This document shows, piece after piece, positions 51,746 through 56,283 of a DNA stretch of 64,000 nt. The position numbers and the translations under genes were made by a program. This DNA comes from Gemmatimonadales bacterium (GTDB taxonomy: Bacteria; Gemmatimonadota; Gemmatimonadetes; Palauibacterales; Palauibacteraceae): positions 1 through 64,000 of the forward strand of contig VXQX01000078.1 in assembly GCA_009838765.1 (NCBI GenBank). The letters are read 5' to 3'. Position 1 is the first letter of the stretch, and every line of letters begins with the position of its first letter. The notes beneath the pieces were generated by a model. That model had not been told where the DNA came from, did no database searches, and saw nothing but the letters and a program-made list of their open reading frames with translations.

Positions 51746-51773
51746 TTGCCCCGCACGCCACGACGTGTAGGAT
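51746..51773 (+). promoter_or_regulatory. candidate promoter of the tRNA-thiI transcript
   Basis: TTGCCC (51746-51751) and TAGGAT (51768-51773), 16-base spacing, about 60 bases before the tRNA. It would drive both the tRNA and thiI. Confidence 0.45.
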
Positions 51774-51783
51774 TGCGGACCCA

Positions 51784-51832
51784 CTGGTGCAGAATCGCAC
51801 AATCCGCGAAGGCTCATGCAACACTGCACCAG
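51784..51832 (+). repeat. 9-bp perfect inverted repeat just upstream of the tRNA
   Basis: CTGGTGCAG (51784-51792) and CTGCACCAG (51824-51832) flank a 31-base loop and end three bases before the mature tRNA. It could form a stem in the precursor RNA next to the RNase P cleavage site. Confidence 0.6.
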
Positions 51833-51835
51833 CAC

Positions 51836-51909
51836 GGCAGGGTAGCTCAGCCTGGTAGAGCAAGGGACTCATAAGCCCTGGGTCGGGGGTTCAAATCCCC
51901 CCCCTGCCA
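51836..51909 (+). tRNA. tRNA with CAT anticodon (elongator Met most likely)
   Basis: A 74-base cloverleaf: acceptor GGCAGGG/CCCTGCC, D-stem GCTC/GAGC, anticodon loop CTCATAA, T-stem GGGGG/CCCCC with loop TTCAAAT, and discriminator A. CCA is not encoded. CAT reads AUG; an isoleucine tRNA with lysidine at C34 has the same anticodon and cannot be excluded. The anticodon stem AGGGA/GCCCT has an A-G mismatch at its loop-closing pair. U8 is present. The thiI start codon is six bases after the discriminator. Confidence 0.95.
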
Positions 51910-51915
51910 CTCGTT

Positions 51916-53403
51916 ATGGCGGCGCAACACGAACTCGGAGCGGGGCCCGTCCGGGCCCTCGTACGGTTCTCCGGCGAGCTCTCGACAAAGGCCCGCCGGA
52001 CGCGGTCGCGCTTCCAGAACCGGCTCGCGGCCAACCTGCGCGACGCGTTCGACGCCGAAGGGATCGACGCCGCGCTCGAGTGCGGCTGGAGCCGCTTCCA
52101 CGTCGAGAGCCCGGACGCGGCCTTCCTCGATCCGCTCCTGCGCACCTTCGGCGTGTCCAGTTGTTCCGTGCTGGCCGGCGAGTGCGAGGCGGACCTCGAC
52201 ACGATCGTCGCCGCGGGCACGGCCTTCTTCGCCGAAGCGGTGCGGGGCCGAAGCTACGCGGTGCGGGCGCGCCGCTCCGGCTCACACGACTTTTCCTCCT
52301 CCGACATCCAGCAGCGTCTCGGGGCGGCTCTCAACCCCGGCGCCACCGTGGACCTCGGGAACCCCGACGTCACCGTGTTCGTCGAGGTCCGTGACGAGCG
52401 TGTCTTCTTCCACGAGGACAGGGTCCGGGGTCCGTCGGGCCTGCCGCTCGGAGTGCAGGGACACGCCCTCGCCCTCATCTCCGGCGGCTTCGATTCGGCC
52501 GTCGCCGCCTGGATGGCGCTACGCCGGGGGATTCGCCTCGACTACGCTTTCTGCAACCTCGGCGGGAGCGCGTACCAGCGGATGGTCGTGGAGGTCACGA
52601 AGATCCTGGCGGATCGCTGGAGCTACGGGACGCGGCCCCGGCTGCACGTCCTCGAGTTCGGCCCGGTCGTCGAGGCGATGCGGGGGCGTGCCAGGCCCGC
52701 GTACCTTCAGGTCGTCCTCAAGCGGATGATGTATCGGGCGGCGGCGACGATCGGGGAACGGGTCGGGGCCGACGCGGTCGTCACCGGTGAGTCCGTCGGA
52801 CAGGTTTCCTCGCAGACGCTCCGGAATCTCCGCGCGATCGAGAACGCTTCCTCGCTCCCCGTACTGCGGCCCCTGCTCGGATTCCACAAGGAGGAGATCC
52901 TCGACCGGGCGCGCGAGATCGGCACCTACGACCTCTCCGCCCGCGTGCGCGAGTACTGCGACCTCGTACCGCAACGGCCGGTCACCGCGTCGTCGCCCGA
53001 GGCCGCCGAGGCGCAGGAATCGGCCGTGGGCTTCGCGGAACTCGACGAGGCGATCGCCCGCGTCGAGATACACGACGTGCGCGCCCTGCGTCCGGAATCC
53101 ATGGTCGGGGCGTCCCTGTACGTGGCCGAAGTGCCCGACGGAGCCGTCATTCTCGACACGCGGCCCCGCGACGCCTACGACGCCTGGCACTGGCCGGGGG
53201 CGGCCCTCCGCGAGCTCCAGCAACTGGAGCGCGACTTCGGCGACCTTGATCGGGACGCGACCTACGTGCTCTGCTGTGCGGAGGGCATGCGCACGGCCTA
53301 TCTGGCCGAGGTCATGCAACGCGCGGGATACGAGGCATACTCCTTCCTCGGCGGGGCGCCCCGCATGCGGCGCGTCGCGCGGGGCGGGACGGGGATCGAC
53401 TGA
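51916..53403 (+). CDS. thiI: tRNA 4-thiouridine synthase with rhodanese domain
   Basis: A 495-residue ThiI that puts sulfur on U8 of tRNA and can feed thiazole synthesis. An N-terminal ferredoxin-like part (FSGELSTKARRTR) and THUMP domain (about 60-165) are followed by the PP-loop SGGFDSAVAAW (about 190) and an AANH domain with Cys in REYCDLVPQRP. The C-terminal rhodanese domain (about 395-490) has its cysteine in YVLCCAEGMRT. ATG 51916 is essentially the only start that preserves the N-terminal motif. No ribosome-binding site fits, because the tRNA gene ends six bases before it. Confidence 0.94.
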   Translation: MAAQHELGAGPVRALVRFSGELSTKARRTRSRFQNRLAANLRDAFDAEGIDAALECGWSRFHVESPDAAFLDPLLRTFGVSSCSVLAGECEADLDTIVAAGTAFFAEAVRGRSYAVRARRSGSHDFSSSDIQQRLGAALNPGATVDLGNPDVTVFVEVRDERVFFHEDRVRGPSGLPLGVQGHALALISGGFDSAVAAWMALRRGIRLDYAFCNLGGSAYQRMVVEVTKILADRWSYGTRPRLHVLEFGPVVEAMRGRARPAYLQVVLKRMMYRAAATIGERVGADAVVTGESVGQVSSQTLRNLRAIENASSLPVLRPLLGFHKEEILDRAREIGTYDLSARVREYCDLVPQRPVTASSPEAAEAQESAVGFAELDEAIARVEIHDVRALRPESMVGASLYVAEVPDGAVILDTRPRDAYDAWHWPGAALRELQQLERDFGDLDRDATYVLCCAEGMRTAYLAEVMQRAGYEAYSFLGGAPRMRRVARGGTGID

Positions 53404-53452: not shown

Positions 53453-54208
53453 ATGAGCGGGAACGAGCGGGGAACGACGGCGGCCCTGGAGGCCGTGCGG
53501 CAGGGCGAAGTGCCGACCCACGTCGCGGTCATCATGGACGGGAACGGCCGCTGGGCGAGACAGCGTGGCCTGCCGCGATGGGAAGGGCACCGCGCGGGCA
53601 TGACGGCGGTGCGGGAGATCATCGAAGGAGCGGCGGAGGCCGGCGTGGCGCACCTCACCCTGTACGCCTTCTCTGATGAGAACTGGTACCGGCCTTCCAT
53701 GGAGGTGGAAGCGCTGATGACGCTCCTCCAGGAGTACGTGAGGAGCCAGCGCGAAGCGCTCGTCCGGCACGGAATCCGGGTCACCGTGTTCGGCGACCGC
53801 CTGCGGCTTCCGGAGGAGGCCCGGCGGGCGATCTCGGAACTCGAGGGGTCGACGGAGGGCGGTACGGCCCTGGAGGTCCACCTCGCGATCAGCTACGGAT
53901 CGCGGGCGGAGCTCGCGGGGGTGGCGCGAACGCTCGCGCAGCGTTGCCTGGAGGGCGAGCTGGCCCCGGAGGAGATCGACGCCGAACGTTTCGGGGCCGA
54001 ACTCCTGACGAGGGACTGGCCGGATCCGGATCTCCTGATCCGCACCTCGGGCGAGCAGCGCATCTCCAACTTCCTCCTCTGGCAGCTCGCGTACGCGGAA
54101 CTCTTCGTGACGGGCGTCCTGTGGCCCGACTTCACCCGGGAGCACCTGTTCGGCGCGCTCGTCGACTACCGGCGCCGCGAGCGGAGATTCGGGCTGGTGA
54201 AGACGTGA
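53453..54208 (+). CDS. uppS: undecaprenyl diphosphate synthase (isoprenyl transferase)
   Basis: A 251-residue cis-prenyltransferase making the lipid carrier for peptidoglycan. The catalytic Asp is in VIMDGNGRWARQRG; GH(R)AGMTAVREI, YAFSDENWYRP and LLIRTSGEQRISNFLLWQLAYAE-type segments are all present. Start choice: ATG 53453, or TTG 53444, which has GGAG at better spacing and would add three residues. TTGACA at 53416-53421 is a possible -35. It heads the uppS-cdsA-dxr-rseP cluster. Confidence 0.95.
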   Translation: MSGNERGTTAALEAVRQGEVPTHVAVIMDGNGRWARQRGLPRWEGHRAGMTAVREIIEGAAEAGVAHLTLYAFSDENWYRPSMEVEALMTLLQEYVRSQREALVRHGIRVTVFGDRLRLPEEARRAISELEGSTEGGTALEVHLAISYGSRAELAGVARTLAQRCLEGELAPEEIDAERFGAELLTRDWPDPDLLIRTSGEQRISNFLLWQLAYAELFVTGVLWPDFTREHLFGALVDYRRRERRFGLVKT

Positions 54209-54224: not shown

Positions 54225-55076
54225 ATGAGCTCCAATCTTCGCAAGAGACTCGCGGTCGCCGGGGTCGGAGTCCCCCTCTGTGCGCTGTCGACCTACGCGG
54301 GAGGGATCGTCTTCGTCGCCGGGATGGGCGCGGCCGCCGCGCTCGGCTACCGGGAATTCGCCGCGATGATGCGCGGGACGGGGACACGGGTCCTCGTGCT
54401 CCCGGGTGCGGTGGCCGCGTTTCTTTTTCCGTTCGCCGTGTTCGCGGGCGGCCTCGCGGGCGGCGGATCCTATGCGGCGGGCCTGATGCTCGCCTTCCCC
54501 GCGCTCGCGCTCTCGACGGTGGGTCTCTCGGAGCGGCCGATCCGGGCCGCCGCCTGCACGACGTTCGGCGTCTTCTACGTCGGAGGCCTGCTCGCGCTGG
54601 GCGTCCCCCTGCGCGAGGGCGGACTTCTGCTCCCGCCCGGCGGCGATGCGAGCGCCGGACGGATGGCCGGCACGCTTCTCTTCTTCCTTCCGGTCGTCAT
54701 CACATGGCTTGCCGACACCGCGGCGTACCTCGGCGGACGAGCGCTCGGGAAACGCCCGCTCGCGCCGCGCGTGAGCCCCAACAAGACGGTGGCGGGAGCC
54801 GTGTGCGCGCTGCTGGCGGGCATCGCCACAGCCGTCCTCTACCCGCGATTCCTCCTCCCGGACATCTGGCCGTTGGACGTGGTGTCCACGCTGGCCTTCG
54901 GGCTGGTCGTGACGGGGCTGGCGGTCATCGGGGACCTTGCGGAGTCCGCCCTCAAGCGCGAGTGCGGCGTGAAGGACTCATCGGGTCTGCTCCCCGGACA
55001 CGGGGGCATGCTGGACCGGCTCGATTCCCTCCTGTGGGCGCTCCCGGCCGCGCTCCTCTTCCTCCTCTTCGCGTGA
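54225..55076 (+). CDS. cdsA: phosphatidate cytidylyltransferase
   Basis: A 283-residue polytopic membrane enzyme (about seven to eight segments) forming CDP-diacylglycerol. The C-terminal signature SALKRECGVKDSSGLLPGHGG matches the CDS family, with ITWLADTAAYLGGRALGK before it. It follows uppS by 16 bases. Its product is the substrate for the CDP-alcohol phosphatidyltransferase at 11.6-12.2 kb. Confidence 0.95.
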   Translation: MSSNLRKRLAVAGVGVPLCALSTYAGGIVFVAGMGAAAALGYREFAAMMRGTGTRVLVLPGAVAAFLFPFAVFAGGLAGGGSYAAGLMLAFPALALSTVGLSERPIRAAACTTFGVFYVGGLLALGVPLREGGLLLPPGGDASAGRMAGTLLFFLPVVITWLADTAAYLGGRALGKRPLAPRVSPNKTVAGAVCALLAGIATAVLYPRFLLPDIWPLDVVSTLAFGLVVTGLAVIGDLAESALKRECGVKDSSGLLPGHGGMLDRLDSLLWALPAALLFLLFA

Positions 55077-55116: not shown

Positions 55117-56283
55117 TTGAAGCACGTCGCCGTCCTCGGTGCAACGGGATCCGTCGGCGGGGGCACGCTCGAGGTGATCCGCCGCCACCCGGCGCGGTTT
55201 CGCGCCGCCGTCCTGACCGCAAACCGCCGTTGGGAGGCGCTCGACGCGCTCGCCCTCGACGGGGACCCCGATTTCGTCGTGCTCGGAACTCCGCCCCCGG
55301 AGGATTTCGCGCCGCGCTGGGCCGGAGAATGGCGCTTCGGCCCCGCCGCGCTCGCGGAGGCCGCCGGATCGTCCGGGATCGACATCGTACTCAATGCGGT
55401 CGTGGGCTTCGCCGGGCTCGACGCGACGCTGGCGGCGCTCAGCGCGGGAAAGCGGCTGGCACTTGCCAACAAGGAGTCGCTCGTGGCGGGAGGAGACCTC
55501 GTGATGCGGGCGCTGCGCCGCGGCGGCGGCGAACTCCTGCCCGTGGACAGCGAACACTCCGCGGTCCACCAGTGCCTGGCCGGGCGTCCCGTGTCGGAGG
55601 TCGCGCGGGTCACCCTCACGGCTTCCGGCGGTCCCTTCCGCGAGTGGCCGGCGTCGCGGCTCGCCACCGTGACGCCGGCCGACGCCCTGCGTCACCCAAC
55701 GTGGTCGATGGGAGCCAAGATCACGATCGACTCCGCCACGCTGGCGAACAAGGCGCTCGAAGTCATCGAGGCGCACACGTTGTTCGACCTCCCATACGAG
55801 CGCATCGAGGTCGTCGTGCACCCCACGTCGATCGTCCACTCCCTCGTCGAGTTCAGGGACGGTTCCTCGCTCGCGCAGTTGGGCCGGCCCTCCATGGAGA
55901 TTCCGATCCTGTGGGCTCTCGGCTACCCCGACCGGCTGGATGACGCGCGTCGGGAGACGGGGTTCGATCCCGTACGGGATGGTCCGCTGGAGTTCGAGCC
56001 GGTGCGGGAAGAGGATTTTCCCCTCTTCCGCGCGGGGGTCGCGGCGGGAGAGGCGGGAGGCGAGTTTCCCGTGGCTTTCAACGCGGCCAACGAGGTTGCG
56101 GTAGAGAGGTTCCTCTCCGGGGACGTCGGCTTCAGGGAACTCGCCGATGTCGTGCTTCGTACGCTGGAACGGTTCTCGTCGCGCGCCATCGAATCGGTGG
56201 AGGATGCGCGGCGCGTCGACGCCCGGGCGCGCGCCATTGCCCGCGACCCACAGGGGGAGTCCAAGTCGGGAGACGCTGAGTGA
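55117..56283 (+). CDS. dxr: 1-deoxy-D-xylulose 5-phosphate reductoisomerase
   Basis: A 388-residue NADPH enzyme, second step of the MEP isoprenoid pathway. The Rossmann motif LGATGSVGGGTLEV is at the N-terminus; LANKESLVAGG, PVDSEHSAVHQCL (metal ligands), TASGGPF, MGAKITIDSATLANKALEVIEAH and VHPTSIVHSLVEF are typical. TTG 55117 follows GGAGG. It supplies precursors for the UppS product made from the same cluster. Confidence 0.96.
   Translation: MKHVAVLGATGSVGGGTLEVIRRHPARFRAAVLTANRRWEALDALALDGDPDFVVLGTPPPEDFAPRWAGEWRFGPAALAEAAGSSGIDIVLNAVVGFAGLDATLAALSAGKRLALANKESLVAGGDLVMRALRRGGGELLPVDSEHSAVHQCLAGRPVSEVARVTLTASGGPFREWPASRLATVTPADALRHPTWSMGAKITIDSATLANKALEVIEAHTLFDLPYERIEVVVHPTSIVHSLVEFRDGSSLAQLGRPSMEIPILWALGYPDRLDDARRETGFDPVRDGPLEFEPVREEDFPLFRAGVAAGEAGGEFPVAFNAANEVAVERFLSGDVGFRELADVVLRTLERFSSRAIESVEDARRVDARARAIARDPQGESKSGDAE

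Follow-up and report, generated by a model that had tools for sequence, protein, structure and literature searches.

A tRNA-Met gene ending six nucleotides before thiI in Candidatus Palauibacter: a probable bacterial version of mitochondrial tRNA punctuation

Protein genes can share transcripts with tRNA genes in bacteria, as in the Escherichia coli thrU-tyrU-glyT-thrT-tufB operon, where tRNAs and a protein gene on one transcript are parted by the tRNA maturation enzymes. In animal mitochondria, the tRNA butts directly onto the reading frame, and the 3' cut frees a near-leaderless mRNA that has no Shine-Dalgarno sequence; leaderless mitochondrial messages are translated (PMC9881170). Leaders of under 10 nucleotides (nt), classed as leaderless in a study of Streptomyces and E. 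coli, also mark the leaderless mRNAs of Actinobacteria, which are unable to use a Shine-Dalgarno sequence (PMC4681348). Here, we describe a bacterial tRNA gene and an adjoining tRNA modification gene that may combine traits of all three systems.

The window analyzed is a 64,000-nt stretch (G000:C20) of the 3.6-Mb, 96-contig assembly of a Candidatus Palauibacter (Gemmatimonadota); the Palauibacter clade that carries the junction consists of marine Gemmatimonadota. Downstream of eno and a divIC-like gene, a functional-looking tRNA(CAU) gene occupies positions 51836-51909 on the plus strand, with its anticodon, CAT, at 51870-51872 and a full-length match to Rfam RF00005 (66.7 bits). ARAGORN sets the bounds at 51836-51910; the final base, 51910, is one trailer base, and the true tRNA end is the discriminator A73 at 51909. 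By known identity features, the gene would encode an elongator tRNA-Met, and it appears to be the only one in the genome; of the two other CAU tRNAs, one resembles tRNA-Ile2 (C4-G69, C5-G68) and the other an initiator. The spacer CTCGTT (51910-51915, plus strand) is both the 3' trailer of the tRNA and the presumed leader of thiI, whose ATG follows at 51916. This geometry, reported in an earlier note on the same DNA, was confirmed by the Rfam match and by direct reading, and the six-base gap is exact in 13 of 17 genomes of the genus (the present genome and 12 others, with protein identities of 88 to 94%).

The thiI gene (51916-53403, plus strand, ATG start) encodes a 495-residue tRNA uracil 4-sulfurtransferase with a C-terminal rhodanese domain. 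Its product, which begins with the predicted residues MAAQHELGAGPV, is by its matches a genuine ThiI: it gives a full-length match of 293 bits to the NCBIfam equivalog-domain model TIGR00342 (cutoff, 264.5), contains ThiI_fer, THUMP, ThiI (PP-loop), and rhodanese domains, and matches PF02568, PF02926, and PF22025. The SGGFDS loop aligns with SGGIDS of solved ThiI, and cysteines are seen in EYCDLVP and, within the rhodanese domain, in CCAEGM; these may be the counterparts of E. coli C344/C456. Upstream, the thiI frame is closed by an in-frame TAG at 51856, within the tRNA gene, and ATG 51916 is the sole ATG, GTG, or TTG in that frame between the TAG and the conserved domain. Changes in the first 12 codons across the 13 genomes are mostly third-position or conservative, a pattern as in coding sequence. 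GTG codons at position 12 or 16, considered as alternative starts and rejected, are present in only some of the 13 genomes.

No purine-rich Shine-Dalgarno sequence was found in the 23 nt preceding the ATG, AAATCCCCCCCCTGCCACTCGTT, even with the tRNA unfolded; a ribosome-binding site is therefore missing both from the 6-nt spacer and from the tRNA arm behind it. The 16S gene of the host, where the anti-Shine-Dalgarno sequence would lie, is truncated at the edge of its contig. The statement of the earlier note that none exists outside the tRNA thus holds and extends to the tRNA interior covered by these 23 nt. It was likewise right that CCA is not encoded, which is true of all 46 tRNAs of the genome as well as of this one. 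In the folded precursor, the acceptor stem closes 6 nt before the AUG; neither this fold nor that of the trailer exceeds shuffled sequences in stability.

A route from this precursor to a short thiI message could be provided by RNase Z, which the genome encodes (346 bits, over the cutoff). In Bacillus subtilis, the enzyme processes precursors that lack CCA, and a U no more than 2 nt from the discriminator stimulates it about 200-fold (PMC10100781). Trailers carry U at +1 or +2 in 42 of the 46 tRNAs, the one before thiI included, and the U at +2 of the thiI spacer, which suits RNase Z, is present in 13/13 genomes. Two combinations expected of tRNA punctuation are found together: a CCA-less tRNA with RNase Z and a permissive trailer, and a tRNA 3' end only 6 nt from a start codon, with no other leader possible, in 13 genomes. 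Cleavage after A73 would produce a thiI message beginning 5'-CUCGUUAUGG. The 6-nt gap, the single start, and the missing Shine-Dalgarno sequence support the earlier proposal of a nearly leaderless thiI message after 3' processing. A general leaderless signal was not apparent in the sampled sequence, where TANNNT stands 5 to 8 nt before only 4 of 411 candidate starts, which were crudely called.

We consider it probable that, in a bacterial counterpart of mitochondrial tRNA punctuation, RNase Z cuts a single tRNA-thiI transcript and so gives thiI a six-nt leader. Transcription would start at a promoter on the 5' side of the tRNA and run through the elongator tRNA-Met and thiI as one unit, probably continuing into uppS-cdsA-dxr. 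RNase P would make the tRNA 5' end, and RNase Z would cleave directly after A73, because CCA is not encoded. This one cut would both ready the tRNA for CCA addition and give rise to a thiI message that starts 5'-CUCGUU-AUG. Initiation at this AUG, so close to the 5' end, would resemble that on leaderless mRNAs and would proceed without a Shine-Dalgarno sequence. We infer the cut site and the leaderless translation of thiI from the arrangement of the genes; if both are right, ThiI output would be coupled to tRNA-Met transcription and RNase Z cleavage rather than to whether the tRNA is thiolated.

The spacer is CTCGTT in 11 of the 13 genomes and CTCTTT in the other 2, with no indels, and is thus invariant at 5/6 positions, versus 82/249 (33%) of the four-fold degenerate sites of thiI; the binomial probability of at least 5/6 invariant positions is about 0.017, with the proviso that neither sites nor genomes are independent. 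The 30 nt on the 5' side of the tRNA contain no invariant position. On these alignments, conservation of the six-nt junction is more than chance. The earlier note had looked to loss of the adjacency in close relatives as evidence against its reading; at that distance the adjacency is kept, exactly so throughout the 13-genome clade, and it is lost in some of the more distant members of the genus. Of the other four genomes, G012 has a gap of 20 nt, G004 one of about 46 nt, and G006 one of about 455 nt; G013 has no tRNA within 1.5 kb.

Farther afield, the two genes part company. In a neighboring genus (g6), the gap is 54 to 153 nt where a tRNA is present, with a terminator-like hairpin in some cases. 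In four genomes from other genera (G022, G020, G033, and G024), the tRNA-Met orthologue shares the strand of thiI but precedes it by 1.8 to 3.7 kb. Whole genes, psd and pssA, intervene in G022, where initiator and elongator tRNA-Met stand in tandem, followed by psd, pssA, and thiI (L083:952-2908). The other family of the order has a tmRNA gene immediately upstream of thiI, at the place of the Palauibacter tRNA-Met (L030, L031, L032, L034, L035, L037, and L041). The distance between tRNA-Met and thiI in other genera indicates that the tight junction is derived, most simply through loss of the intervening sequence.

Such a loss may be all that happened, with thiI merely co-transcribed, its short leader tolerated, and no regulation involved. 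The series of gaps across the family, from kilobases with genes between through 455, 46, and 20 to 6 nt, agrees with this account, as does the free variation in gap length outside the 13-genome clade; the 6 nt frozen without indels within that clade suggests, however, that the junction came under constraint once formed. We give plain compaction an even chance of being correct. It is compatible with tRNA punctuation of thiI, agreeing with it on the molecule and differing only in denying the junction a use.

The layout is not special to thiI. A tRNA-Gln(TTG) gene (L070:835-910, G000:C15) is separated by the 4 nt TCCC from the start ATG of a yyaL-type (DUF255/thioredoxin) gene; in the predicted product, the conserved domain comes straight after the first residues. 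This tRNA-Gln lies directly upstream of the yyaL-type gene in the same 13 genomes that have the six-nt thiI junction. In six of them (L111-L115 and L117), the start region carries a 13-nt duplication, which places the in-frame ATG 17 nt after the tRNA-Gln; the other ATG, which comes first, lies in a different frame that closes after six codons, shortly beyond the second start. Among the 46 tRNAs, with gene calls made partly by eye, only these two are followed within 10 nt by the start of a protein gene of assigned family. About 50 nt after tRNA-Pro(GGG) (L065:1439-1570, G000:C12), on the same strand, an apparent secreted amidohydrolase-like protein is encoded, a possible further tRNA-mRNA unit. 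Since the yyaL-type gene is unrelated to U8 modification, the arrangement does not depend on whether the product modifies tRNA. A stronger version of the punctuation model, in which these bacteria deliberately use tRNA 3' maturation to switch selected genes (thiI and the yyaL-type gene), so that release of a message, and hence its translation, reflects tRNA supply and the activity of RNase Z, seems to us doubtful.

A conserved sigma-70-like box upstream of the tRNA is the candidate promoter of the tRNA-thiI unit (51746-51773, plus strand): TTGCCC (51746-51751) and TAGGAT (51768-51773), 16 nt apart. TTGCC(C/T)-16-TAGGAT precedes the tRNA in 11/13 genomes with the six-nt junction, T replacing the last C in one, and G004, with its 46-nt gap, has TTGACC-16-TAGGAT; the box is missing at L008 and L010. 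Because a stricter consensus scan did not report it, its candidacy rests on conservation. Between this box and the tRNA, an inverted repeat read directly from the plus strand, CTGGTGCAG / CTGCACCAG (51784-51832), lies in the presumed tRNA 5' leader and stops 3 nt before the tRNA; it is missing in most relatives, and in L012 a hairpin insertion of a different kind occupies its site. A scan found no terminator-like site between the tRNA and thiI. Together with the conserved upstream box, this makes co-transcription, which the earlier note asserted, the economical reading.

The unit may be longer. On the same strand downstream of thiI lie uppS, encoding undecaprenyl diphosphate synthase (53453-54208; PF01255, 261 bits), a cdsA-like cytidylyltransferase gene that is next in the presumed operon (54225-55076; PF01148, 174 bits), and dxr, encoding 1-deoxy-D-xylulose 5-phosphate reductoisomerase (55117-56283; PF08436, PF02670, and PF13288). 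The uppS ATG is 49 nt after thiI, with similar spacing in 13/13 genomes that have the six-nt junction, and uppS is probably in the same transcript as thiI. Alternatively, a promoter hidden in the tRNA gene, where tRNA constraint would mask it, could give thiI a leadered transcript carrying the 3' half of the tRNA. A weak likeness to a -10 box is seen in the anticodon arm, in CATAAG (51870-51875); this sequence is, however, fixed by tRNA function and has no matching -35 box, the scan reports no promoter within the tRNA gene, and the resulting leader would still be without a Shine-Dalgarno sequence, all of which makes such a start very unlikely.

ThiI activity strictly requires a mature 3'-ACCA end, blunt-ended tRNA giving under 0.1% s4U8 (PMC4041423), and that end is absent until the cut and CCA addition, so thiolation would come too late for ThiI to act on its own precursor. 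The feedback inferred in the earlier note, in which processing of the tRNA or its s4U8 state, set by ThiI, controls thiI translation, is thus not supported and very unlikely: the enzyme gene does adjoin one of its substrates, which carries U8 at 51843 as the note had stated, and the junction is exactly kept in 13 genomes, but ThiI would act only after release of the tRNA from thiI, tRNA-Met is a poor sensor when every U8 tRNA is a ThiI substrate, the same layout precedes the unrelated yyaL-type gene, and in relatives a terminator-like hairpin or whole genes set the tRNA and thiI apart.

If the RNase Z cut is confirmed, tRNA punctuation of thiI would mean that, in a bacterium with a genome of normal size, tRNA maturation generates the 5' ends of housekeeping messages, as it does in mitochondria. 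The translation efficiency of near-leaderless, probably 5'-monophosphate messages would become testable, and the supply of elongator tRNA-Met would be linked to expression of ThiI and perhaps also of uppS-cdsA-dxr. Our literature search, beyond whose reach most subscription journals lay, found no described bacterial case of such a junction.

Each of the known systems also differs from this locus. In the E. coli tufB operon, a leader that includes a ribosome-binding site remains between the tRNA and the protein gene, whereas the thiI leader would be 6 nt long. In the leaderless mRNAs of Actinobacteria, the 5' end is the transcription start (PMC4681348); that of thiI would come from tRNA cutting. 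In animal mitochondria, punctuation is genome-wide, whereas here it would operate at two junctions in a 3.6-Mb bacterial genome, by a cut that we infer. The tRNA-thiI junction is real, conserved, and unusual in its tightness, and it is best read as tRNA-punctuated expression, a variant of both tRNA-mRNA operons and mitochondrial punctuation.
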